Shown here: positions 321-47,827 of the stretch, in pieces | How positions within the stretch are numbered: the stretch's first letter is position 1 | Layout: the number at the start of each line of letters is the position of its first letter | NCBI GenBank assembly: GCA_002782005.1 | Contig: PFGT01000060.1 | Span: 1-51,068 of the forward strand | From: Hydrogenophilales bacterium CG12_big_fil_rev_8_21_14_0_65_61_21 | GTDB lineage: Bacteria > Pseudomonadota > Gammaproteobacteria > Burkholderiales > Thiobacillaceae | Reading direction: 5' to 3' | DNA length: 51,068 nucleotides | Notes under the pieces: model-generated | Told to the model about the DNA's origin: nothing | Database searches by the model: none | The model's input: only the letters and a program-made list of their open reading frames with translations | Made by a program: the position numbers and the translations under genes

Positions 321-1058
321 CTACCGGGGGGGCAGCCGAATGCTGGCGGCCATGCCGGCCAGCAGGCGGTTGCGGGGGATGGCGACGTCTAGTTGGTAGT
401 GGCCGTCGGCCTTGGCCCGGACGGCGACGATACGGCCGGCGAGGGCCTTGCCGCCGGCGTTGACGTCCAGGCGGCCGCCCGGTTTCAGGCCGCCGGCCTG
501 GTTGGCGGTGAGGCTGGCACGGGCGATGATCTGGTCGGCGCGGGCCACGGCGATCAGGCTGGGCGGTTGGTTTTGGGCCGCGACGGTCATGCCCGGTTCG
601 GCCTGGCGGTCCAGAATCAGGGCGTCGAACGGGGCGCGTATCTCGCTTTCGTCGAGCAGGTGGCGGGCCTTGTCGACGCGCGCCTGGGCGGCGGCGGCCT
701 GGGCGGCGGCACTGGCATGGTGCAGCTTGGCGGCGTCCAGCTCGGTGGTCGAGGTCACGGTGCGGGCATAGAGTTCATTGGCCCGGCTCAAGGCCTTCTG
801 GGCGTCGGCCATCTGTTCGCCGAGCCGGTTGGCGTCGGCCTGCGCCTCAGCCAGATTGGCCTTGAATAGGGTCGGGTTCAGCCGCAGCAGCAGCTCGCCC
901 TGGCGCACGGTCTGGCCGGGCTGGACGTTCACGCTGGCCACTACGCCGGAGACCGGGGTGGATAGCTCCAGCCGTTGATACCAGTCCAGTTGGGCGGCCA
1001 GATCGGCTGCCCCGACGGGCAGGGCGGTGAGCAGCAATGCAGCAGCGAGTAGCCTCAT
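321..1058 (-). CDS. Periplasmic adaptor (HlyD/RND membrane-fusion) protein
   Basis: The 245-residue protein has an N-terminal signal peptide (MRLLAAALLLTALPVGAAD, likely cut after GAA). A lipoyl-like half follows (STPVSGVVASVNVQPGQTV), then an alanine-rich helical hairpin at about residues 65-135 and the second lipoyl half (SEIRAPFDALILDRQAEPG). This is the order of membrane-fusion proteins that bridge an inner-membrane pump to a TolC channel. It is short for the family and lacks a long C-terminal membrane-proximal domain. Its start overlaps the stop of the TolC-type gene by 4 bases, so the two are co-translated. No inner-membrane transporter gene follows, so the pump partner must be encoded elsewhere or to the left of the window. 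Confidence 0.85.
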   Translation of the reverse strand: MRLLAAALLLTALPVGAADLAAQLDWYQRLELSTPVSGVVASVNVQPGQTVRQGELLLRLNPTLFKANLAEAQADANRLGEQMADAQKALSRANELYARTVTSTTELDAAKLHHASAAAQAAAAQARVDKARHLLDESEIRAPFDALILDRQAEPGMTVAAQNQPPSLIAVARADQIIARASLTANQAGGLKPGGRLDVNAGGKALAGRIVAVRAKADGHYQLDVAIPRNRLLAGMAASIRLPPR

Positions 1059-2341
1059 TTCGTTTCCTCTATGGTGTTCGTGGGCTTGACCGTTGCCAAC
1101 GGCCGGCCGAGCAGGCCATTCAGTCTTTCCCAGGCCAGGGCCAGTTGATAGTCCACCGCTTTCCGGCGTAGCCGGGCGGCCTGGATGTCGGCCATGCCGG
1201 TGCCCAGGTTGGTCTTCAGTTCCATCTCGTATTCGGCACGGGCGCGCTCCAAACGCTGGTCGCGGTAGTTGGCGTTGACCTCGGCCGCCGGGCGGGCGGC
1301 GGTGCGCAGATAGTCGATCTCTTCAAAGCTGTCGCGCAAGGCCTGGCCGAGGTCCAGGCGCAACCTTTCATACTGTGCCTGGAGTAGTTGGAAGCGGGCT
1401 TGTTCCTGGGCGACAAGGGCGTCCGTCTGGTGGCCTTGGTAGAGTGGCCAGGTCAGGTTGAGACCGAAATGGATATTGTCGCGGGTCGCGGTAGCACGGC
1501 TGTAGGTGGCGGTGCCGGCCTCTAATTCCAGGTTGGGCCGGTTTGCCGCCCGCTGTGCCTCCAGCCGTTTCTGCGCCGCCGCCAGTAGCCGCTTCTGGGC
1601 CTGGAGCCGGGGATTGTCAGCCTCCAGGGCGGCCTGTAAGTCGTTCAGTGCCGGCAGGGGGCGGTCGTTGTCCTGGAGTGTCGGTTCGACTAGCTCGGAA
1701 GGTAGCTCGCCGGGGCGATTCATCGCGTTGGCCAGCAGGGCGCGTTTGCTCCGTGCCTGGCGCAGGTCATCCTCGCGTTTCACCCGGATGTCTTGATAGC
1801 GCGCCTCCATCTCGGCCAGGGCGACGCTGGAAAGCTCGCCGACCTGAAGCCGGTCCTTGCCGTTGCCGAAGCTGACATAGGCGACGGCGGTGAGTTCGCT
1901 ATCGACGGCGTATTGCATATCGGTCAGTAGCACGTCGAAGAAGCGGTTCATCAGGGCCAGTCGGCGTTGGGCGATGGCGTCCAGATACTGAGTCTGCCGG
2001 CCTTCGGCCTCTAGCGCCGCCGCGTCGCTGGCGAGCTTGTTGCGGCCGCCATCCCAGATGAGTTTGCGGGCACCGAGACTGGCGAAGTTATCGTCGGTGT
2101 AGCCGCCGTCCAGCGGGTTGCGGCCGGTGCGCAGGCTGGCATCCAGGGTGATGCGCAGGTCGTTCTGGCTCTTAGCCAGCAACTGGCTGGCCTGGGCCAG
2201 GTTGGCCTCGGCCTGGGCGGCATCGAGATCGGGATGGGCCTGGTCGGCATAGGCCAGGACGGCGTCCAGGGTGAGCGGCGAGTCGGCCGCCATGGCCGGC
2301 TGGCCCAACATCAAGCCCAGTGTCAGCCACAGTCCGCGCAT
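1055..2341 (-). CDS. TolC-family outer-membrane efflux protein
   Basis: The 428-residue protein has a signal peptide ending near QPAMA and two internally similar halves of long amphipathic, Ala/Gln/Arg-rich helices with short beta segments, typical of outer-membrane efflux proteins. The segment LTLDAVLAYADQAHPDLDAAQ is the usual N-terminal start of the domain and a related GLNLTWPLYQG strand appears in the second half. It would form the trimeric exit duct working with the adaptor encoded just downstream. The gene lies 2 bases after the thioredoxin-like gene, so the whole 321-3338 block reads as one operon. Confidence 0.88.
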   Translation of the reverse strand: MRGLWLTLGLMLGQPAMAADSPLTLDAVLAYADQAHPDLDAAQAEANLAQASQLLAKSQNDLRITLDASLRTGRNPLDGGYTDDNFASLGARKLIWDGGRNKLASDAAALEAEGRQTQYLDAIAQRRLALMNRFFDVLLTDMQYAVDSELTAVAYVSFGNGKDRLQVGELSSVALAEMEARYQDIRVKREDDLRQARSKRALLANAMNRPGELPSELVEPTLQDNDRPLPALNDLQAALEADNPRLQAQKRLLAAAQKRLEAQRAANRPNLELEAGTATYSRATATRDNIHFGLNLTWPLYQGHQTDALVAQEQARFQLLQAQYERLRLDLGQALRDSFEEIDYLRTAARPAAEVNANYRDQRLERARAEYEMELKTNLGTGMADIQAARLRRKAVDYQLALAWERLNGLLGRPLATVKPTNTIEETK

Positions 2342-2343
2342 GT

Positions 2344-2877
2344 TCAGCGGGCGGCCCGAGCTTGTTTTTTGTACACGTTGAAGGGTGCCTTCTGGTACTC
2401 GCCGGTCACGACATAGCGGCCCAGTAGCATGAATTCGTCGGCGGTCTGGGTGATGCCGGTGAAGCGGGTTACCTCATTGCCGGCGGTGTCATAGAAGATG
2501 AAGGTGGGCGTGGCGCGGGCGCGCTGTTCCAGAGCGAATGCCTTTTCAGTGGTGTTCTTGCCCTTGAAGTCGGTCAGCTCGACCGAGCCACGGGTGTCCA
2601 TCGGGTAGATGATGAAGTGCTGGCGGAAATAGTCCTGTACCTGGCGCTGGTTGAGCACGGTGTTTTTCATCCGTTCGCAGAATGGGCAGTCGTCCATTTC
2701 GAACATCAGCAGGATACCGGTCTTGCCGGCCTGGCGGGCATCGGCCAGATCGCCTTTCAGGTCACCCATCTTGGGCTGGAAGAAATATTCGCCAGGGTTG
2801 CGGGTCTCGGCCAGGGCCGGAACGGTCAGAAAGGCCAATAGCAATAGCAGCCAGCGCATCGTTGTGCTCCTCGTCAT
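2344..2877 (-). CDS. Periplasmic thioredoxin-fold protein (SoxW/DUF255-like)
   Basis: The product is 177 residues, or 171 if translation starts at the second Met (MRWLLLLLAF). A signal peptide ends at ALA before ETRNPG. The thioredoxin active site is DDCPFCERM, preceded by GILLMFEM, and the cis-proline is in ARATPTFIFYD. The CPFC centre and the following helix resemble SoxW-like periplasmic thiol-disulfide proteins found in sulfur oxidisers; this subfamily call is inference. It follows the TlpA-like gene with a TAATG overlap and precedes the TolC-type gene, so it may keep exported or envelope thiols reduced. Confidence 0.8.
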   Translation of the reverse strand: MTRSTTMRWLLLLLAFLTVPALAETRNPGEYFFQPKMGDLKGDLADARQAGKTGILLMFEMDDCPFCERMKNTVLNQRQVQDYFRQHFIIYPMDTRGSVELTDFKGKNTTEKAFALEQRARATPTFIFYDTAGNEVTRFTGITQTADEFMLLGRYVVTGEYQKAPFNVYKKQARAAR

Positions 2878-3338
2878 TATTTAGCCGCGCTGCCTTTTGC
2901 CGCCATGTAGCGTTCTACCGCCGCGCGAGTCAGCGCGCCGACATTGTAGGCGACCATCTTGCCTTGCGGGTTGTATAGATAGGTGGTGGGCAGGCCGGTG
3001 ATCTGGCCGATCTGGGCGACCACCTTGTCATCACCCAGGACGATGGGGTAGTTGATGTTTGCGGATTGGGCGAAGGCGACGACCTCTTTGGGGTCCTTGT
3101 AGTCCATGGCGACGCCAATGACCACCAGTTTTTTCGGGTTATTTTTGGTCAGCGCGATCAGGTCCGGAATCTCCTGCCGGCAGGGCGGACACCAGGTGGC
3201 CCAGAAGTTGACCAGTACCCATTTGCCCTGGTAGCCGGCCAGGCTGTGTTTGCGCCCCTTGCTGTCGGTCAGGTTGAAGGCCAGGGCAGCGCCGGTCAAG
3301 GTCAGCAGGCAAAGGCCCAGTAAACTTTTTTTAAACAT
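2877..3338 (-). CDS. TlpA/ResA-like thiol-disulfide oxidoreductase
   Basis: The 153-residue protein has an N-terminal signal sequence (MFKKSLLGLCLLTLTGAALA) and one thioredoxin domain. The active site is ATWCPPCRQEIPDL and the cis-proline loop is TGLPTTYLYNPQG. The insert between them (VVIGVAMDYKDPKEVVAF) is typical of the TlpA/ResA/AhpC-TSA group, which reduces periplasmic disulfides such as apocytochrome c thiols. It is the first gene of the four-gene operon running leftward. It might serve cytochrome c maturation, which the many c-type proteins in this window need, but the operon itself does not show that. Confidence 0.85.
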   Translation of the reverse strand: MFKKSLLGLCLLTLTGAALAFNLTDSKGRKHSLAGYQGKWVLVNFWATWCPPCRQEIPDLIALTKNNPKKLVVIGVAMDYKDPKEVVAFAQSANINYPIVLGDDKVVAQIGQITGLPTTYLYNPQGKMVAYNVGALTRAAVERYMAAKGSAAK

Positions 3339-3402
3339 GGTAATCCCGATAATTAGTAATGATGACAGATTGACCGCGTCGGCCGGTCCGAGTTCTCGAC
3401 GG

Positions 3403-3948
3403 CTATTCTTGCGCCTTGCCGTGGCTGCCGTCGGCGGCGTGGGTGAGATACAACGCCAGACCGATCAGGGCCAGTGCGCCGGCCAGGTAGAGCAGGTCGA
3501 TGGGGCTGCTGACGGTGACCTTCATGGTTAATTCGAAGATGGTGACGATGAGGATCATGATGATGACCTTGGCCAGGCGTTGTTTCAGATCATCCAGGCT
3601 TCCGATCACCAGTATCTTGCTGGAGGTCTTGCTGCCCTTGGCGGCGTCGATTTCGCTGACGAATAATTCGTACAGGCCAAGGGCGAAGATCAGCATCACC
3701 GTGCCCAGCAGATAGCCGTCCACGACCTCGACGACGTGGGTAACGGTGGCGTCATGCAGGGCCTTGCGGGCAAGATCGGTCAGATTCGCGTCGGCGTAAT
3801 GGACGATATGCCGAACCAGGTACACCACATCGGTGGTCGCCATGTAAAAGATGGCGAAGGCCGAGGCCATACTGGCGACGACGGCGAAGATGACGACGTA
3901 GCGGCTGCGCCAGAGCAGCCCTTCGAACAGTTTTTCGATAAAGCCCAT
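3403..3948 (-). CDS. YqhA-family (UPF0114) inner-membrane protein
   Basis: The 181-residue protein has three clear membrane helices (about residues 15-37, 77-97 and 124-165, the last a double span). The spacing and the SEIDAAKGSKTSSKILVIGSLDDLKQRLAKVI loop between helices (quoted only to locate it: about residues 92-122) match the YqhA/UPF0114 family. The function of this family is not established. It diverges from the PilZ-like gene across 41 bases. Confidence 0.8.
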   Translation of the reverse strand: MGFIEKLFEGLLWRSRYVVIFAVVASMASAFAIFYMATTDVVYLVRHIVHYADANLTDLARKALHDATVTHVVEVVDGYLLGTVMLIFALGLYELFVSEIDAAKGSKTSSKILVIGSLDDLKQRLAKVIIMILIVTIFELTMKVTVSSPIDLLYLAGALALIGLALYLTHAADGSHGKAQE

Positions 3949-3989
3949 AAATTCGCCGAAATTTACAATCGTGGAAGGGGGTCATTACA

Positions 3990-5516
3990 ATGCGCCAGTC
4001 CATGAAACCATCATACACATTGGCCGTACCCGACGCGGCGCCCAATATAAACCTGGCCACGAAGGCCAAGCAAGTCGAGACTTGGCTTGCCGGGTTGCCA
4101 AACGACGATGCCCTGGCGAAGTGTGATCTGCTGGCGGCTTATCTGGCCGAGCACGACCGCCCCGACCTGCCGGCGAGCTTCCGCAAGGAGCTACTGGCGC
4201 TGACCGGGCAAGCGGTCGCGGAAGCGCTGTATAGCCTGAAGGCCGAGTTCAAGGCGCTGCCGCTGCCCATGGATGGCCGCCAGCGCGACCGCGTGGACCG
4301 GCTCATTGGACTCCTTTTGACGGTCGCGGCGCTGTACCAGCGGTTGATACTGGACCATGTCGAATACCCGCCGCGCCGGTTTGGCGACCATTTATTGCCG
4401 GGACTTGTGTCCGGCCTGCTGCGGGTTTCCGGACGCATCCTGGATATTTGCTATCTATGCCATCGCCAGCCGCCGGATGGCCTTTGGCGTGACATCCACC
4501 AGACTGGCTACCTGATCTTCAATGCTCACCTGAACGATGTACTTGACCCGGCGGGGTCGGGCGCCACCTTGATCGAAATCTATACCGCCCTGCTTCTGGA
4601 GGCGGCGGCGGACCCTTATCACTGTACCGAGCGAACGCGTCTGTGGATCGAGGATGCTATCGACCGGCAAGGTTGCCTGGCCCAGGTCGAGTATGCTGAT
4701 TCGGCCACCCATAAAGGGATTTACGGCATACGCGTGGATGAGGATAAGCCGCCCTACCCCTTGTCCTGGCGGATGGAAATAACGCCCGCTTGCGAACTGG
4801 TGCTGAATACCGCGCCGCTGGCCCGAAAATTGGCCCTGGTTATCAACCAAATGGAACAGGGTAGGGCCATGGAACAGGCCGTGCCGGCGGCATGGTTTCA
4901 GCCCTATAAGGCACTGTTGCAGCAGCTTAAACTGTTATGGAGCGGCGCCATGGCGCGCTCGGCGCCTCGGCGGACATCTTCGTGGCCAGCCCGGCAGAGG
5001 GCGACGTTGGGCTTTACGGCCATCCACGCGCAACTCGTCGGCGGCTTGAACGGGGGGGCGGAAGCGGGCGCCATCGGCTTCGAGTTGGTCAATGAAAGCC
5101 CAGGCGGCATTGCTATCTCGGTGGACAAGCCGGCGTTCCGGCTTCAGGTCGGCATGTTGATCCTGCTCGGCCAGGGTCAGGGACACCGTCCCCACGGCCT
5201 GGGCCTGGTGCGCTGGTTCAAGACCCGAACGGACGGCGTGTCGATGCTCGGCATCAAGTTGCTGTTTGGTCAGCCCCGGTCGGTGACTGTCTTTCCTAGC
5301 GATGGCCGGCACGTTTATCCGGGCTTGCTCCTGCAACCTGGTAATGGCCTTCCGGAAAACAAGGCCGCGCCCAGCAGACTGATCCTGCCCGCCATTCGCA
5401 TGGAAGTCGATACCCGTGTCGATGTTCGGGAAGATACGGCGCGGGTTCGGCTGCTACTGACCGAAAGGCTGGAAGGGTCGAACGATATCGCGCTATTCCG
5501 TTGCCGCGCGGATTAA
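3990..5516 (+). CDS. PilZ-like domain protein, possible c-di-GMP effector
   Basis: The 508-residue protein has no signal peptide or membrane segment. The N-terminal 320 residues are helical and match no domain I can name. The C-terminal part (about 335-505) looks beta-rich: GFELVNESPGGIAISVDK, then VGMLILLGQGQG and LGLVRWFKTRTDG. This is the layout of PilZ-type barrels, with the NxSxxG-like element NESPGG. The usual RxxxR motif is not obvious, so binding of c-di-GMP is uncertain. Start choice: ATG 3990 with GGAAGGGGG upstream. Its stop overlaps the stop of convergent motD. Neighbouring motility genes make a role in motor or surface regulation plausible. Confidence 0.55.
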   Translation: MRQSMKPSYTLAVPDAAPNINLATKAKQVETWLAGLPNDDALAKCDLLAAYLAEHDRPDLPASFRKELLALTGQAVAEALYSLKAEFKALPLPMDGRQRDRVDRLIGLLLTVAALYQRLILDHVEYPPRRFGDHLLPGLVSGLLRVSGRILDICYLCHRQPPDGLWRDIHQTGYLIFNAHLNDVLDPAGSGATLIEIYTALLLEAAADPYHCTERTRLWIEDAIDRQGCLAQVEYADSATHKGIYGIRVDEDKPPYPLSWRMEITPACELVLNTAPLARKLALVINQMEQGRAMEQAVPAAWFQPYKALLQQLKLLWSGAMARSAPRRTSSWPARQRATLGFTAIHAQLVGGLNGGAEAGAIGFELVNESPGGIAISVDKPAFRLQVGMLILLGQGQGHRPHGLGLVRWFKTRTDGVSMLGIKLLFGQPRSVTVFPSDGRHVYPGLLLQPGNGLPENKAAPSRLILPAIRMEVDTRVDVREDTARVRLLLTERLEGSNDIALFRCRAD

Positions 5517-32833: not shown

Positions 32834-32868
32834 ATCGAAAGGCCGACAATTTTAGTCGGCCTTTCGAT
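32834..32868 (-). terminator. Stem-loop between dsrP and dsrN
   Basis: A perfect 14-bp stem (32834-32847 with 32855-32868, arm atcgaaaggccgac) closes a seven-base loop. Read on the minus strand, TTT follows the stem (the last stem base is also T). This could be a partial terminator or an mRNA processing and stability site separating dsrABEFHCMKLJOP from dsrNR. Confidence 0.7.
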
Positions 32869-41300: not shown

Positions 41301-41328
41301 CGTGCCGGGAGATTGCGCTCCCGGCACG
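41301..41328 (-). terminator. Stem-loop between dsrB and dsrE
   Basis: A perfect 11-bp stem (cgtgccgggag, 41301-41311, with 41318-41328) closes a six-base loop. Reading on the minus strand, a small AGCGA/TCGCT repeat and a run of six T follow about 15 bases later. It may be a partial terminator or processing site that sets the ratio of dsrAB to downstream mRNA. Confidence 0.65.
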
Positions 41329-42468: not shown

Positions 42469-42508
42469 TACTCCTGTTTTGCGGGCTAATATCCGCAAAA
42501 CAGGAGTA
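42469..42508 (-). other. Perfect 16-bp stem-loop between dsrA and dsrB
   Basis: The arms tactcctgttttgcgg (42469-42484) and its exact complement (42493-42508) flank an eight-base loop. The structure lies 6 bases beyond the dsrA stop. There is no T tract, so it is not a standard terminator. It is the strongest inverted repeat in the dsr transcript and separates two genes whose products are needed in equal amounts. Confidence 0.85.
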
Positions 42509-42514
42509 ATCGGA

Positions 42515-43816
42515 TTACGCGGCGGCGTTCTTTCGCTCGTTCCACTTGGCCGCTTCCTCGTCCCAGCCATCCATACGGATGTAGGGGTTGGTACGCGGGT
42601 GGGTAATCATGCTTGGATCGACCGGGATATCGAGACCTTCCAGGAAGTTGACCAAGCCGATACGCTCGATCATCTCGCCGGTACGCTCATGCTCCAGTGC
42701 ATTCTCGGCAAAGAAGTCCATGATGTTGCGTACCAGATCGTTCAGCTTTTCGAAGTCCTCGTCGGATTCCATCTTCATGAACGGGATCACCACGGTGCCC
42801 AGCGAGGTGCCGATCTTCAGCACGCTCTTGCCGCCAACCAGGATGGTGACGCCCTTGTCCTTGCCAGGCAGCAAGGCGCCAGGCATGACATTCAGACAGT
42901 GCATACAGCGCACGCAGTTGTGGTTGTCGATCTCGATGCAGTTGCTGTCGGAGACCGCAACCTTGGTCATGCCTGCGGCGGCCGCTTTGCCGTCATTCTT
43001 GACCAACTGAATGGCGCGGGTCGGACACATGCCGATGACCATGTTGGTCAGGTCTTCCATGCTGTGAGCGGTCAGCCAGGCGCGGGCCTGCTTCTCGTCA
43101 GCGCGGATGCTGTCGCGCCAGGTGCCGATGGTGGCCATGTCGGAACGCTGGATGGCGTTCATGCAATCGTTCGGGCAGCCGGAGAACTTGAACTTGAATT
43201 TGTACGGCATGGACGGGCGATGCATATCGTCCAGGTTGTTGTTGATGACGGTGCGCAGGGCGCGGGCCTCGTCATAACAGGACATTTCGCAGCGAGCAGC
43301 GCCGACGCAGGACATGGAGGTACGCAGCGCGGGGCCGGCGCCGCCCATGTCGAAGCCCATCTCATTGAAGCGGTCGAAGGAGCGCTGTACGTCTGCGGTC
43401 CTGATGCCCTGGAACATGATGTCGCCGGATTGGCCATGCAGGGCGATCAGGCCTGATCCGCCGGTTTCGCTCCAGGCGTCGCATAATTGACGCAACAGGT
43501 CGGAGGTGTAATGCATGCCGGCGGGCGGCATGATGCGCAGGGTGTGGAACTCGGCGGCTTCCGGGAACTTCGGGGTGCCGTCGGCGTTCTTGAGTTCGGT
43601 GAAGCGGGGAATCACGCCGCCGCCATAGCCGATCACGCCCACGGTACCGCCCTTCCAGTAGCCGAAGCGAGTCTTGTAGGAGGTTTCCAGTTGGCCGAGC
43701 AGGTCGACCATCATGTCGTTATCCTTTGCTAGCCGTTTGATGCCGGTTACGAAGCTGGGCCACGGGCCTTTTTCCAGCTCGTCCAGATTCGGCGTGTCAT
43801 GCATTTTCTTAGCCAT
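42515..43816 (-). CDS. dsrA: DsrA, dissimilatory sulfite reductase alpha subunit
   Basis: The 433-residue protein has cysteines for the siroheme-coupled [4Fe-4S] cluster in SCVGAARCEMSCYDEAR and GCPNDCMNAIQR and a ferredoxin insert (NCVRCMHCLNVMPGAL). It is the first gene of the operon, with AGGAGA seven bases before ATG 43816. Together with DsrB it carries the catalytic siroheme (or siroamide). Confidence 0.97.
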   Translation of the reverse strand: MAKKMHDTPNLDELEKGPWPSFVTGIKRLAKDNDMMVDLLGQLETSYKTRFGYWKGGTVGVIGYGGGVIPRFTELKNADGTPKFPEAAEFHTLRIMPPAGMHYTSDLLRQLCDAWSETGGSGLIALHGQSGDIMFQGIRTADVQRSFDRFNEMGFDMGGAGPALRTSMSCVGAARCEMSCYDEARALRTVINNNLDDMHRPSMPYKFKFKFSGCPNDCMNAIQRSDMATIGTWRDSIRADEKQARAWLTAHSMEDLTNMVIGMCPTRAIQLVKNDGKAAAAGMTKVAVSDSNCIEIDNHNCVRCMHCLNVMPGALLPGKDKGVTILVGGKSVLKIGTSLGTVVIPFMKMESDEDFEKLNDLVRNIMDFFAENALEHERTGEMIERIGLVNFLEGLDIPVDPSMITHPRTNPYIRMDGWDEEAAKWNERKNAAA

Positions 43817-44088
43817 CTGTTTCTCCTTTAGGTCTTGCGAAGCGGTATGCGGTATATCGTCACTACCTATACAACACTGCTCGTGGGCATCCTGCCGGCA
43901 CGAGACGAGTCCGACAATATTAGTGAGCCTGTTTGCCTGAGGCCATCATTCCGATGGGGTAAATTGGTTTTTCGTGGGAGTAGTTTGTACCTACCCGATC
44001 AGGTAGGTTCGTTTACCCCATGGCATGATGCTTTTACTCGATAAAATCAGGCTCAATACAGCCTTGATTCATAGACCGTACCGAAATC
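43817..44088. promoter_or_regulatory. Divergent control region of the dsr operon and accessory genes
   Basis: This 272-base gap contains the starts of both transcripts. The minus-strand side reads TATAGGTAGTGACGATATAC about 50 bases before dsrA, offering weak -10-like boxes (GATATA) but no good -35. The plus-strand side has GATAAA about 50 bases before the 84-residue gene. A 20-bp dyad lies inside (next entry). I see no gene in it. Confidence 0.5.
43989..44008. promoter_or_regulatory. 20-bp dyad, candidate operator
   Basis: Seven-base arms acctacc and ggtaggt flank cGATCa, so 9 of 10 base pairs are symmetric. It lies about 81-100 bases before the 84-residue gene and 173-192 before dsrA. Symmetry and position suit a regulator dimer serving both directions. 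The regulator is not identifiable in the window. Confidence 0.45.
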
Positions 44089-44343
44089 ATGGACGAGATC
44101 AAGTCGCTGACCAAATTCCGCAATCCATACGGCAACCAGGAGATCGAACTCCAGGAGGCGCGCTATGCGTCTGGCGGGATGCCCATGATGCGCCTGCGTA
44201 TCCGCGAACGCGGCGCGCGCTTTACGATCTTCGATGTAGATTCGGTGACGGCCAAGCATTGGGCTGAGGAAATGTTGAAATGGGTCGCTAGCCAAGAACC
44301 CGGCCCCGTCGCTTCGACAGGAGACTCGTATGCGGATGTATAA
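44089..44343 (+). CDS. Small conserved-looking protein at the dsr locus, unknown role
   Basis: The 84-residue soluble protein reads MDEIKSLTKFRNPYGNQEIE, then MPMMRLRIRERGARFTIFDV. It is predicted to be beta-rich then helical (TAKHWAEEMLKWV). I do not recognise a characterised family, though it resembles small hypothetical proteins of thiobacilli in my memory. It overlaps the Cas6-like gene by 14 bases, so the two are co-translated and probably function together. No strong Shine-Dalgarno sequence precedes ATG 44089. Confidence 0.65.
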   Translation: MDEIKSLTKFRNPYGNQEIELQEARYASGGMPMMRLRIRERGARFTIFDVDSVTAKHWAEEMLKWVASQEPGPVASTGDSYADV

Positions 44344-44983
44344 CCCGGACTGGCAGGCCATCAAGGACTTCCAGTACACCCCGCGTTTCAAGGATTTGCA
44401 TTTCGATTTGGTTGGCGCCGAGATTCCGGTCGACCACGGTCAAGCCCTGTTCGATGCCTTGGCAGCCCATCTACCCTGGTTGAAAGACGAACCCGCGGTG
44501 GGCATCCATCCTATCCATGGCGAGCCGACTGGGCGCAACGACAACCTAATCATCAGCCGCCGCATCAAACTGGTGTTGCGCCTCCCCGTGACTCGCATGG
44601 AAGATGCCCTCGCCCTGAGCGGCAAGCGCCTCGATACCGGCGCTGGCGAGCTTGTGGTCGGCCAGGCGAAGGAGAGATTACTGACGCCCTTCGCCACCTT
44701 GTACGCGCCGATTGTTGATTTCGGGACCGACGATGAGGCGGTCTTTTTGGCGGCGGCGCGCGTCGAATTGGAGGCCATGGAGATTCGCTGCCAACTCCTG
44801 CCGGGCAGGAAGCGTAAAATTCACCTCTCCGAAGGGGAGGTATTGGGTTATAGCCTCATGTTGCATGATGTCGACCCACAGCAATCGTTGCGGGTTCAGG
44901 AACAAGGCTTGGGACGCCATCGCCACTTTGGCTGCGGTATATTCGTCCCCCATAAATCGATTAAGGCAGTTGTGATCGACTGA
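44330..44983 (+). CDS. Cas6/Cmx6-like RAMP protein (no CRISPR array)
   Basis: The 217-residue protein matches the pattern of the type I-MYXAN Cas6/Cmx6 family. The N-terminal strand-helix reads GAEIPVDHGQALFDALAAHL; then GIHPIHG, with a histidine where such nucleases carry one, IKLVLRLPVTRMEDALALSG and the glycine-rich C-terminal loop SLRVQEQGLGRHRHFGCGIF. Cas6 proteins cut CRISPR repeat RNA at a hairpin. There is no CRISPR array or other cas gene in the window, and the gene is divergent from dsrA. It starts at ATG 44330 with AGGAG seven bases upstream. A cellular RNA, such as dsr mRNA, may be its target; that is inference. Confidence 0.72.
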   Translation: MRMYNPDWQAIKDFQYTPRFKDLHFDLVGAEIPVDHGQALFDALAAHLPWLKDEPAVGIHPIHGEPTGRNDNLIISRRIKLVLRLPVTRMEDALALSGKRLDTGAGELVVGQAKERLLTPFATLYAPIVDFGTDDEAVFLAAARVELEAMEIRCQLLPGRKRKIHLSEGEVLGYSLMLHDVDPQQSLRVQEQGLGRHRHFGCGIFVPHKSIKAVVID

Positions 44984-45001: not shown

Positions 45002-45026
45002 GTAACCTGTGTATAGGAGAAAAATC

Positions 45027-45359
45027 GTGGGATATGTACTAAACGGCGAAGAACTGGAAGTCGATGACGAGGATTTCCTGACCGAAGCCAATTTCAGCGA
45101 TGAAATCGTACCGATTATCGCCGAAGCCGAAGGTCTGAAACTGACCGAAGATCATTGGAAGGTCGTCCGCTTCATGCGCCAGAAATACCAGGAAGATGGC
45201 CATACCCCCAACTTCCGCAACATGTTCATGGGCATGGATGAAGAATATCCTGGTACCGATTGGAAAAAGACCTTGTATGAGCTGTTTCCCAAGCAGCCGA
45301 ATCGCCAGGCTTCCAAGGTGGCCGGCCTACCCAAGCCGTACGGTAAGGGCGGTTACTGA
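45027..45359 (+). CDS. DsrC-like protein lacking both redox cysteines (RspA type)
   Basis: The 110-residue protein follows the DsrC fold throughout (EELEVDDEDFLTEANFSDEI, then LTEDHWKVVRFMRQKYQEDG and TLYELFPKQPNRQASKVAGL). In the C-terminal arm the first cysteine is serine (QASK) and the second is missing (PKPYGKGGY). It cannot carry sulfur as DsrC does. Cysteine-less DsrC homologues have been called RspA and proposed to be regulators. GTG 45027 is chosen since AGGAGA lies 6 bases upstream. Confidence 0.88.
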   Translation: MGYVLNGEELEVDDEDFLTEANFSDEIVPIIAEAEGLKLTEDHWKVVRFMRQKYQEDGHTPNFRNMFMGMDEEYPGTDWKKTLYELFPKQPNRQASKVAGLPKPYGKGGY

Positions 45360-45365
45360 GTGAGT

Positions 45366-45436
45366 AGCTTGTAGCTTGTAGCCGGTAGTGAACTGCCGGC
45401 TACGGGCTACCAGCTACCAGCTACCAGCTACCAGCT
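45366..45436. repeat. Heptamer-repeat hairpin before the sulfurtransferase gene
   Basis: Stem arms gtagccggtag (45378-45388) and ctgccggctac (45393-45403) enclose tgaa with one G-U. The right side continues as four copies of gctacca ending at 45436, and the left side as agcttgt repeats. The repeat ends one base before the ATG at 45438, where a ribosome-binding site would normally be. Confidence 0.8.
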
Positions 45437-45437
45437 T

Positions 45438-46289
45438 ATGTACTACACCACACTCGTTTCCACCGACGATCTGGCGCGTCATCTGGATGATCCGCACTGG
45501 ATCGTCATCGATTGCCGGTTCAGCCTGACCGACCCCGAAGGCGGCCGTTCGGCTTACAGTAAAGGTCACATACCGGGCGCCCGGTACGCTCATCTGGACG
45601 CCGATCTGGCGGGTCCGATCGGCCCCGATACGGGGCGCCATCCGTTGCCCGATGTCGAGACCCTGGCCTTGAAGTTGTGTCGCTGGGGTGTAGGCGTCAA
45701 TAAGCAGGTGGTGGTCTACGACGATAGCTTCGGTTCCATGGCGGTTCGCTTGTGGTGGCTGTTGCGTTGGCTGGGCCACCCAGGCGTCGCGCTGCTTGAC
45801 GGCGGTTACCCGAAATGGCTGCGCGAGCGGCGCCCGACCACGCAAGAGGTGCCCGAACCGATTGGCAAAGGCATTTGCGCCAGATTGCCGGAGTCGAGCC
45901 TGTACGTGAATGCCGATCAGGTGATGCAGGCCGTGGTGACGGGCGACAAACTGATCCTTGATGCCCGTCCGGAACGGCGCTTCAGCGGTGAATATGAGCC
46001 GCTGGATACCGTGGCCGGTCATGTCCCCGGCGCGGTCAACTGGAACTTCGAGGAAAACCTCGATATTGATGGCACCTACTCGCCGCCCGAGGCCCTGCGC
46101 GAAAATTACCAGGCCCTGCTGAAGGGCCGGGCGCCGTCCGATGTCATCCACATGTGTGGCTCAGGCGTCACCGCTTGCCACAACATCCTGGCCATGGAGA
46201 TCGCCGGCCTATCCGGCTCCCGGCTCTATGTCGGTTCCTGGAGCGAGTGGGTCACCGACCCGTCGCGTCCGATTGCGCTTGGAGAGTAA
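45438..46289 (+). CDS. Tandem-rhodanese sulfurtransferase (TST/3-mercaptopyruvate type)
   Basis: The 283-residue protein has two rhodanese domains. The catalytic loop of the C-terminal domain is MCGSGVTACHNIL (Cys240), the CGSGVT motif of 3-mercaptopyruvate sulfurtransferases; the N-terminal domain is inactive. YDDSFGSMAVRLWWLLRWLG and the DARPERRFSGEYEP segment are typical. It could supply persulfide sulfur to DsrEFH. There is no Shine-Dalgarno sequence: the heptamer repeat abuts the start codon. Confidence 0.9.
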   Translation: MYYTTLVSTDDLARHLDDPHWIVIDCRFSLTDPEGGRSAYSKGHIPGARYAHLDADLAGPIGPDTGRHPLPDVETLALKLCRWGVGVNKQVVVYDDSFGSMAVRLWWLLRWLGHPGVALLDGGYPKWLRERRPTTQEVPEPIGKGICARLPESSLYVNADQVMQAVVTGDKLILDARPERRFSGEYEPLDTVAGHVPGAVNWNFEENLDIDGTYSPPEALRENYQALLKGRAPSDVIHMCGSGVTACHNILAMEIAGLSGSRLYVGSWSEWVTDPSRPIALGE

Positions 46290-46292
46290 TGA

Positions 46293-46889
46293 ATGGCTGC
46301 CCCCACCCGCGTAAAAACAACCTGGTTCAAGAAGGACGCCGAGCACGCAGTTGAGGAGACCGCCAGCGCCCTGGCCACCACTATCTGGCGCATGGCCGAC
46401 CGCGCCATGGATAATTTATCCCGCGCCGATTTCGACATCATTACGCCGCAGCGCGGCTTCAAGATCATTGGCGAGTTGACCGCCTTCGCCGTCCATTATG
46501 TCGATCGCCTGGTATTTCCCCGGCTGAGCGACGTTGACCGGGGCGAGTTGGTCAGCGCCCTGGGCGGCCGACTGGCCGAGGTCATGGAAGAAAATATCCT
46601 CGATTTCACCGAAGGCGAGAAGGACGCGGACTACGATTACCAGCAAGGCTACATCGACCTGCTCAATGCCCGCATGACCGAGTACGCACACTATGATTTC
46701 CCGGACGACCGGCCCAGCTTTCAGTCCCTGCGCTTCCTTAGCCTGCAAATCCGCGAGGACATGGAAAAGTCCGACCAGACCTGGATCCAGGACCAGATCA
46801 TGGACATCGAAATGCCCGAGATACTGGGCACAGTGAAGAAGCAGGTCGATGGCTTCTACCCGCTAACGAACGCGGCAATGGAACAATAG
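46293..46889 (+). CDS. Unknown soluble helical protein
   Basis: The 198-residue protein is predicted almost all helical, acidic, with no signal or membrane segment. Distinct stretches are TIWRMADRAMDNLSRADFDI and YDYQQGYIDLLNARMTEYAH. I do not recognise it. It lies 3 bases after the sulfurtransferase gene and 2 before the dioxygenase gene, so the three form one translational unit, which hints at a joint role in organosulfur or sulfur-transfer chemistry. Confidence 0.65.
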   Translation: MAAPTRVKTTWFKKDAEHAVEETASALATTIWRMADRAMDNLSRADFDIITPQRGFKIIGELTAFAVHYVDRLVFPRLSDVDRGELVSALGGRLAEVMEENILDFTEGEKDADYDYQQGYIDLLNARMTEYAHYDFPDDRPSFQSLRFLSLQIREDMEKSDQTWIQDQIMDIEMPEILGTVKKQVDGFYPLTNAAMEQ

Positions 46890-46891
46890 AA

Positions 46892-47827
46892 ATGATCCCC
46901 ACAAATTCCCCTTTTCATCCCGACAACAGCGCCGGCTACCAGCGTTGGCGTGAGGCCAAGTTGGCCGGCTATCCGACCCGGGGCGAGGACCTCATCGTCG
47001 AGGTGCGTAACCCCCATGCCCTGAGCGATGCCGAATATCGCGCGTTACGGGACCGCGTCGCCAAGTGCAACATGGCCATCTACGCCACCGCGCTGGGCGA
47101 GGCCGAGGACAAGGCCGCAGTGCGTGCGCTGTCGGCCCAGTTTGGCCTCAGTCATCTCGACGCCAACTGGCTGGCCGACGAAGACGGCATCTCCAGCCTG
47201 ACGCCGCGTGACGAGGACGGCCAGGCCGAGCCCAATGCGGCGGACGGCCATAAGGCCGCCCGCCGTGGTGACTACATCCCTTATACCCATCACCGCATCC
47301 GCTGGCACACTGACGGCTATTACAACCCGGAACCCCGGCGCATCCTGGCCATGACCCTGCATTGCGTGCGGAATGCCCATGAAGGCGGCGACAATGAGTT
47401 GTACGACCAGGACCTGGCCTACATTCAGTTGCGCGACAGCAACCCGGACTTCATCCGCGCCCTGATGGCGCCGGATGCCATGACCATCCCGGCCCGTGTC
47501 GACGAGGTCGACGGCGAGCGCCCGGCAGAGTCTGGCCCAGTATTTCTGGTCGACCCGGCCAGCGGCGGCCTGCACCTGCGCTACACCGCCCGCACCAAGA
47601 GCATCGTCTGGAAGGACGACCCGATCACGCAGGCCGCTGTGCAGGCTATCGATGAGTTGCTGGCCAGCCAGGCGTTTGGCTGGTTCCGCCTGAAAATGCA
47701 ACCGGGCATGGGCCTCATCTGCAACAACGTCCTGCATACCCGCGACGGCTTTAATGACAATCCGGAACATCGGCGGTTGCTCTACCGCGCCCGTTATCAC
47801 GACCGTATCCGCGATCTGCGTCGCTGA
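46892..47827 (+). CDS. TauD/TfdA-family Fe(II)/2-oxoglutarate dioxygenase
   Basis: The 311-residue protein contains the iron-binding facial triad: RWHTDGYYNP (His139, Asp141) and the distal VLHTRDGFN (His282), followed by the 2-oxoglutarate arginine region RRLLYRARYHDRI. TauD-like enzymes hydroxylate taurine, sulfonates, sulfate esters or related compounds. The substrate here is unknown. The position behind the sulfurtransferase in a dsr-linked operon suggests a sulfur compound, but that is context only. Confidence 0.85.
   Translation: MIPTNSPFHPDNSAGYQRWREAKLAGYPTRGEDLIVEVRNPHALSDAEYRALRDRVAKCNMAIYATALGEAEDKAAVRALSAQFGLSHLDANWLADEDGISSLTPRDEDGQAEPNAADGHKAARRGDYIPYTHHRIRWHTDGYYNPEPRRILAMTLHCVRNAHEGGDNELYDQDLAYIQLRDSNPDFIRALMAPDAMTIPARVDEVDGERPAESGPVFLVDPASGGLHLRYTARTKSIVWKDDPITQAAVQAIDELLASQAFGWFRLKMQPGMGLICNNVLHTRDGFNDNPEHRRLLYRARYHDRIRDLRR

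Follow-up and report, generated by a model that had tools for sequence, protein, structure and literature searches.

A Cas6/Cmx6-family protein encoded divergently from dsrA at the dsr locus of beta- and gammaproteobacteria

Introduction

The reverse Dsr pathway is a main route of biological sulfur oxidation. The locus described here raises the question of what a protein of the Cas6 family, the members of which trim CRISPR guide RNAs, is doing beside the genes of this pathway. We analysed a stretch of 51,068 nucleotides (the window; contig PFGT01000060.1, assembly GCA_002782005.1) from a Hydrogenophilales bacterium of the Thiobacillaceae. A first-pass annotation, made from the letters of the window, had described a full-length Cas6/Cmx6-like RAMP protein encoded next to dsrA, divergent from the dsr operon and without CRISPR, and had suggested that it acts on hairpins at the dsr gene junctions. 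It named profile searches, structure prediction and a survey of dsr loci as checks, and the lack of a RAMP-type fold or of co-occurrence with dsr genes as grounds for giving up the reading. The results below indicate that a conserved gene block diverges from dsrA and that its key member has an RNA-processing fold known from CRISPR.

Comparisons were made in 250 genomes of the window's order (order sample), in 274 genomes of its class (class sample) and in genomes from outside the class (phylum control). The labels beta and gamma were assigned by sample and tree. The features of the window are collected in Table 1.

Table 1. Features of the window at the dsrA–cas6 region and their basis.
Feature	Position	Strand	Basis
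dsrB/dsrE hairpin, candidate substrate of the first-pass annotation	41301..41328	-	fold z -2.8
dsrA/dsrB hairpin, candidate substrate of the first-pass annotation	42469..42508	-	fold z -6.0
dsrA, divergent from the Cas6 block	42515..43816	-	TIGR02064, 496.1 bits
Near-perfect palindrome ACCTACCCGATCAGGTAGGT, operator-like, between the divergent genes	43989..44008		sequence
DUF6967 (PF22295), 84 aa, shares 14 b with the cas6 ORF	44089..44343	+	profile, predicted fold
Cas6/Cmx6-family protein, 217 aa	44330..44983	+	ORF, profile matches, predicted model
DsrC/TusE-family paralog (PF04358), ends GKGGY, C-terminal arm without cysteine	45027..45359	+	profiles
Rhodanese-domain sulfurtransferase	45438..46289	+	profiles, block survey
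198-aa protein, no Pfam match, block member	46293..46889	+	block survey
TauD/TfdA-family dioxygenase, block member	46892..47827	+	profile, block survey

Results

The protein is a Cas6 of the Cmx6 type

The ORF was identified as a genuine Cas6 with profiles from three libraries: Pfam PF09559 Cas6 (E 1.4e-59; 201.7 bits, cut-off 26.7), NCBIfam TIGR02807 Cas6/Cmx6 (175.1 bits, cut-off 98.85) and the PADLOC Cas6 model (E 9.9e-61). These matches bear out the family membership that had been proposed from sequence patterns, and the motifs quoted at the time, GIHPIHG among them, are present in the ORF. The sole match in a sequence search of the PDB was the Cas6 of a type I-B CAST (E 1e-16). An AlphaFold model (pLDDT 92.1, pTM 0.86) had the Cas6/RAMP fold when compared by VIA-align, and its best structural match was again a CAST Cas6 (8fcj_B; Foldseek E 2.8e-19; VIA-align Z 26.1, rmsd 2.0 A over 197 residues), the next matches including Pyrococcus Cas6 (3qjj_B, Z 16.8) and Cse3 (Z 12.8).

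The window protein carries a putative catalytic H36, H60, the dsr-type signature residues R78 and E136, a C-terminal PHK and a C-terminal G-rich loop (G193–G203), in which G193, G195 and G201-C202-G203 were invariant in 30 of 30 Cas6 sequences. H36 stands just before helix 1 (residues 37–47) of the model, a place that, by comparison with other Cas6 enzymes, makes it the putative catalytic residue.

Presence of Cas6 does not follow cas1

A scan for direct repeats of at least 22 nt within 120 b returned no CRISPR-like array in the window, and none of 10 further window ORFs had a PADLOC match. The only repeat in that scan was a perfect 54-nt tandem duplication at the window start (positions 1–108). 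Elsewhere in the genome, cas1 was found on two small contigs only: C48, which encodes a Cas4-Cas1 fusion and Cas2 and has a 37-nt repeat in two copies, and C70, with a type III-like set of a RAMP protein, Card1, Cas2 and Cas1 that includes a Cas6 from a different family (PF10040, E 1.2e-15). The earlier statement that the gene stands without CRISPR is thus correct for its surroundings but not for the genome.

In the order sample, with cas1 as a proxy for CRISPR, 16 of 46 genomes with Cas6 were positive, as were 80 of the 204 without it (p 0.76; 250 genomes). In the class sample, cas1 was missing from 40 of the 80 Cas6 genomes tested (out of 91) and from 7 of 10 Cas6 genomes assembled as a single contig. 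The presence of Cas6 does not follow that of cas1. Both Cas6 and dsrA were also found in small genomes (G288, G390 and G502, 1.0–1.1 Mb; G357, 1.4 Mb; G473, 1.6 Mb), which from their size of 1.0–1.6 Mb we guess to be those of symbionts, and the first four of these have no cas1. None of 11 pattern matches on viral contigs encodes a relative, and a PHROGs search gave no match.

Cas6 is linked to dsrA within the class

PF09559 Cas6 was present in 46 of 250 genomes of the order sample, in one copy each. All 46 carried dsrA, and 46 of the 51 dsrA genomes carried Cas6 (Fisher 5e-45), a dsrA count that takes in two genomes with dsrA in fragments or under cut-off (G014 and G161). The two genes were divergent in 46 of 46 pairs, with a median gap of 616 b (range 416–4969); the tie to dsr noticed in the window is real and extends well beyond it. 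In the class sample, dsrA was found in 87 of 91 Cas6 genomes and Cas6 in 87 of 94 dsrA genomes (Fisher 2e-57), seven genomes with dsrA in fragments or under cut-off being included in the dsrA count. Pairs within 4.6 kb on one contig were divergent in 65 of 65 cases, one pair (G357) was 41 kb apart and not divergent, and for 25 of the 91 Cas6 genes dsrA was on another contig or not found. Thus, a Cas6 without CRISPR beside it adjoins the dsr operon in most of the dsr-bearing beta- and gammaproteobacteria sampled. With a RAMP fold in the model and co-occurrence with dsrA in the survey, both grounds named in advance for giving up the reading on fold and linkage fall away.

In the phylum control, Cas6 was found in none of 45 dsrA genomes (44 over cut-off and a fragment in G655) and none of 35 others; the Cas6 model that was silent throughout this control did give matches in the order and class samples. 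Dsr chemistry as such therefore does not depend on Cas6.

Exceptions within the class were few. Cas6 without dsrA found was limited to four class genomes (G316, G342, G375 and G434), in each of which tauD adjoins cas6 and the contig stops at most 0.4 kb past tauD, at the expected place of dsrA; an assembly or binning gap is therefore the likely reason. Seven class genomes had dsrA without Cas6: in three (G319, G358 and G455) a contig end lay within 0.66 kb upstream of dsrA, and in two (G328 and G485) only fragments were present; the other two are G371 and G459. Of the five dsrA genomes of the order sample in which Cas6 was not found, three (G083, G132 and G217) appear to lack it genuinely; the remaining two are G122 and G145. 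Second dsrA copies were observed in loci L171 (G182), L172 (G243) and L175 (G167). In the 16–17 kb examined at each, neither dsrB nor any other gene of the dsr operon nor the Cas6 block was detected; in L172 one DsrC-family gene lies ~7.7 kb from the second dsrA.

Cas6 belongs to a conserved block with a DsrC paralog

Among the nearest 80 of 505 relatives (loci L031–L110, some of which stop at contig borders), DUF6967 was present in 80, dsrA in 78, the 198-aa gene in 78, the rhodanese gene in 75 and tauD in 70. Genes of the block mostly follow one another as DUF6967, cas6, dsrC paralog, rhodanese, 198-aa gene and tauD, and the titles of these loci include Thiobacillus, Hydrogenophilus, Tepidiphilus, Gallionellaceae, Sulfuricella and Rhodocyclaceae. 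DUF6967 was found in 44 of the 250 order genomes, all 44 with dsrA, and where both were present it lay 24–169 b upstream of the Cas6 match. Its predicted fold has four strands and one helix, and the top structural neighbours of the model were PUR-alpha and PC4 proteins, at a weak level (Z of at most 7.3 against a caution level of 8; Foldseek E 0.06).

In gamma loci, a conserved protein of ~60–70 aa is encoded directly upstream of cas6 (17 aligned examples), for which hhalign gave a probability of 5.6% of relation to DUF6967. In the gamma dsr loci L152–L159, tauD was found in seven of eight and a KGGY paralog after cas6 in eight of eight, and the window's rhodanese query found a rhodanese in one of eight.

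The DsrC paralog of the window was taken to start at GTG 45027, which is preceded by AGGAG (the ORF list starts at 45009). Of 93 Cas6 loci, 88 had a DsrC paralog on the same strand at a distance of at most 2 kb; of the five without one, L083, L089 and L106 are not explained by a contig end. Such paralogs beside Cas6 ended in KGGY in 87 of 89 cases, and in the same set 66 DsrC-family ORFs ended TGC(I/V), as DsrC proper does. The DsrC terminal cysteine was absent from 88 KGGY paralogs. A single cysteine in the last 32 residues, at position -15, was present in 22 of 87 KGGY paralogs beside Cas6, in 22 of 36 loci with a Cas6 lacking H36 and in 0 of 51 with H36, a pattern that belongs to one clade and may be one event. 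The three dsr genomes that look like true absences of Cas6 (G083, G132 and G217) have DUF6967 and the 198-aa gene; the KGGY paralog is absent from the stretches examined in G083 and G217, and G132 has a non-KGGY paralog there. The interval between the DsrC paralog and the rhodanese gene in the window (45360–45437) holds a repeat-rich palindrome of TAGCTACCAGC units (fold z -6.6).

Signature residues and descent of the dsr-type Cas6

An alignment of 160 Cas6 rows included 149 of the dsr type (110 beta and 39 gamma) and six from CRISPR operons. These counts include copies, as at least four genes appear twice among the 39 gamma rows and the 110 beta rows were drawn from two sources; the gamma-type gene of L021 (G241) is counted among the beta rows. 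R78 and E136 were present in 149 of 149 dsr-type rows, compared to one of six and zero of six CRISPR-operon rows, respectively, and the G-rich loop, R78 and R84 were invariant in those dsr-type rows that reach that far. H36 was found in six of six CRISPR rows, 39 of 39 gamma rows and 67 of 110 beta rows, and H60 in zero of six, 38 of 39 and 65 of 110. The two histidines were mostly lost together (HH in 103 rows, NQ in 31, others in 19; n = 153). With 43 of the 110 beta rows lacking H36, cleavage cannot be a universal requirement. Cas6 of the dsr type is under purifying selection (dN/dS 0.03–0.19 in 13 of 13 close pairs).

In the Cas6 tree, the bootstrap of which is not fully settled, 95 dsr-type rows were split from the CRISPR and Gloeobacter rows with support of 100/99. 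The trees are unrooted, and the direction from CRISPR to dsr is therefore not given by them. In G241 (L170), a genome of the window's order, a gamma-type Cas6 is placed next to G331 (90/96, not a starred branch) and a gamma-type dsrA likewise next to G331 (98/91). Because both genes are of gamma type and stand beside G331, the whole dsr and cas6 locus of G241 was probably transferred as a unit.

Junction hairpins track lineage

All three hairpins named by the first-pass annotation exist, two with the z values of Table 1 and the third, in the 32834 region (32834–32868), with a fold z of -5.5. To follow the first two across loci, a hairpin was counted as present at -15 kcal/mol or lower. The dsrA-dsrB hairpin was present in 60 of 67 beta loci with Cas6 (33 of 39 with H36 and 27 of 28 without it) and in two of three beta loci without Cas6. 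In gamma loci it was found in four of eight with Cas6, all with H36, being weak or absent in L158 and L159, and in none of three listed without Cas6, one of which, L161, belongs to G357, where Cas6 lies 41 kb off. The dsrB-dsrE hairpin was present in 34 of 36 beta loci with H36, 25 of 25 without H36 and neither of two without Cas6, and in two of eight gamma loci with an H36 Cas6 and none of the three listed without Cas6. Junction hairpins were commoner in Cas6 loci than in the few loci without Cas6, in small numbers. Stem sequences differed widely between relatives and were alike within Thiobacillus. The pattern of junction hairpins tracks lineage and not the histidines of Cas6.

A constant hairpin directly downstream of cas6 was considered as another candidate target, and none was seen in 25 loci (-5.9 to -22.0 kcal/mol). 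Rfam gave no match in the window at gathering score.

Palindromes upstream of dsrA

Within the 330 b preceding dsrA, 43 of 94 loci, both beta and gamma, have palindromes of the form TAYCC-N4-6-GGRTA, mostly ~180 b before dsrA; in a shuffled control the mean was 0.5 and the most 2 loci (20 rounds). The window's own copy is a one-mismatch form and is not counted among the 43. A TAATAT box, chosen by eye, follows downstream of this copy, an arrangement more suggestive of an operator in the DNA than of a hairpin in the RNA. A further element, CCATC-N5-GATGG, was observed upstream of dsrA in many beta loci. Both kinds of element, seen in the survey of window positions 43943–44008 and the dsrA-upstream regions of L031–L161, are possibly binding sites of a dsr regulator.

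Discussion

The reading that we favour, and consider somewhat likelier to be right than wrong, is that the dsr-linked protein is an exapted Cas6, active outside CRISPR and a permanent member of the reverse (oxidative) Dsr locus of beta- and gammaproteobacteria, where it binds, and in most species probably cuts, RNA. Specific RNA would be bound through the G-rich loop and the conserved arginines. In most species it would then be cut by H36, perhaps with H60, while in Thiobacillus-type species that have neither histidine Cas6 would only bind. The protein may work with the small protein encoded upstream (DUF6967 in betas) and with the DsrC paralog, which could couple RNA binding to the status of the sulfur-carrier pathway; the dsr regulon would in this way come under post-transcriptional control. 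The target RNA need not be the junction hairpins. The conserved G-rich loop and the weak PUR/PC4-like prediction for DUF6967 are consistent with a role in RNA, though fold and genomic position do not by themselves establish function. A wider reading, which we put forward tentatively and with some doubt, is that a Cas6 from CRISPR, joined by a DsrC paralog and a small protein that binds nucleic acid, became established as a dedicated RNA-processing regulator of reverse Dsr in beta- and gammaproteobacteria, very small genomes included. It would form a riboregulatory arm, assembled from CRISPR components, of a core energy pathway, in which one clade gave up cutting with the loss of H36 and H60 and has a paralog with a cysteine that is absent from the cutting type.

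Other explanations were weighed against the exapted RNA-acting Cas6. The protein could be a moonlighting or scaffold protein, its RAMP fold reused without RNA for contact with another protein such as the DsrC paralog. The joint loss of H36 and H60 in one group and the constancy of the DsrC paralog as a neighbour fit this, but the invariance of the G-rich loop, R78 and R84 in the dsr-type rows that reach that far speaks against it, and we judge it unlikely. Unlikely, too, is that the block is an RNA sulfur-modification machine in which Cas6 presents RNA, such as the stem-loop of a tRNA, to the TusE/DsrC-like carrier, the rhodanese and the dioxygenase. TusE takes part in tRNA thiolation, and here a TusE/DsrC-like protein, a rhodanese and dioxygenases share a block with an RNA-binding fold; however, the KGGY paralogs are without the DsrC terminal cysteine, any cysteine in their last 32 residues being limited to 22 of 87, and the window's rhodanese query found its target in just one of the eight gamma loci L152–L159.

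The form first proposed for the window, that Cas6 cuts the dsr junction hairpins and so sets the stoichiometry of the Dsr proteins, has in its favour the strong hairpins in the window and at the same junctions of most beta loci (dsrA-dsrB, 60 of 67). Against it, the dsrA-dsrB hairpin is kept where H36 is gone (27 of 28 beta loci) or Cas6 itself is absent (two of three beta loci), is weak or absent in four of the eight gamma loci, including L158 and L159, although their Cas6 has H36, and has stems that differ widely in sequence between relatives. The hairpins exist, but cutting by Cas6 at these sites now seems improbable. That the protein matures crRNA in trans, serving CRISPR systems on other contigs, is hardly credible: the window's genome does contain two cas1 genes and a repeat pair, but we reject this explanation because Cas6 shows no association with cas1 (p 0.76), our proxy for CRISPR, and is kept in single-contig and small genomes that lack it, and because a PF10040 Cas6 already belongs to the type III-like locus.

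The Cas6 of the dsr locus can be set beside several known systems. Type I-MYXAN Cas6 (Cmx6) of cyanobacterial plasmids shares with it the PF09559/TIGR02807 family, the G-rich loop and H36 (six of six), but sits in cas6-cas3-cas8/cmx8 operons whereas the window gene sits in a dsr block, and E136, R78 and the PHK tail set the dsr type apart. The type I-B CAST Cas6 (8fcj/8fcu), the closest solved structure to the model, is part of the transposon's CRISPR-type complex and has an Asn at the place of H36. Pyrococcus Cas6 (3qjj) and a Cas6-related RAMP protein (3ufc) have the same fold (Z 16.8 and 16.4) at 10–12% identity. PUR-alpha/PC4-type nucleic-acid-binding proteins resemble DUF6967 weakly at the level of predicted fold (Z 7.3 at best). 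DsrC-family proteins without C-terminal cysteines, which we take to be those called RspA in the literature, have PF04358 and the missing cysteine arm in common with the window paralog. Among the matches listed from the open-access literature, we did not meet a Cas6 pairing or a KGGY tail for such proteins. These matches likewise include no report of a link between Cas6 and dsr, nor is one reported in passages of PMC5944118, PMC5728499, PMC10952691, PMC8889020 and PMC3575380.

An RNA tool of an immune system may thus have become part of sulfur energy metabolism. Should Cas6 act on RNA, then sulfur oxidation is subject to a form of RNA-level control so far unrecognised, and parts of CRISPR have been recruited for core metabolism and not for defence. 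In a sulfur oxidizer, the automatic label 'type I-MYXAN CRISPR-associated protein Cas6/Cmx6' does not necessarily imply CRISPR. One further Cas6/Cmx6 gene, on plasmid pGMOR1 of Gloeobacter morelensis (L164, 3968–4759), has no annotated cas neighbours within 4 kb and lies near genes for PAPS-reductase-family and cupin proteins.
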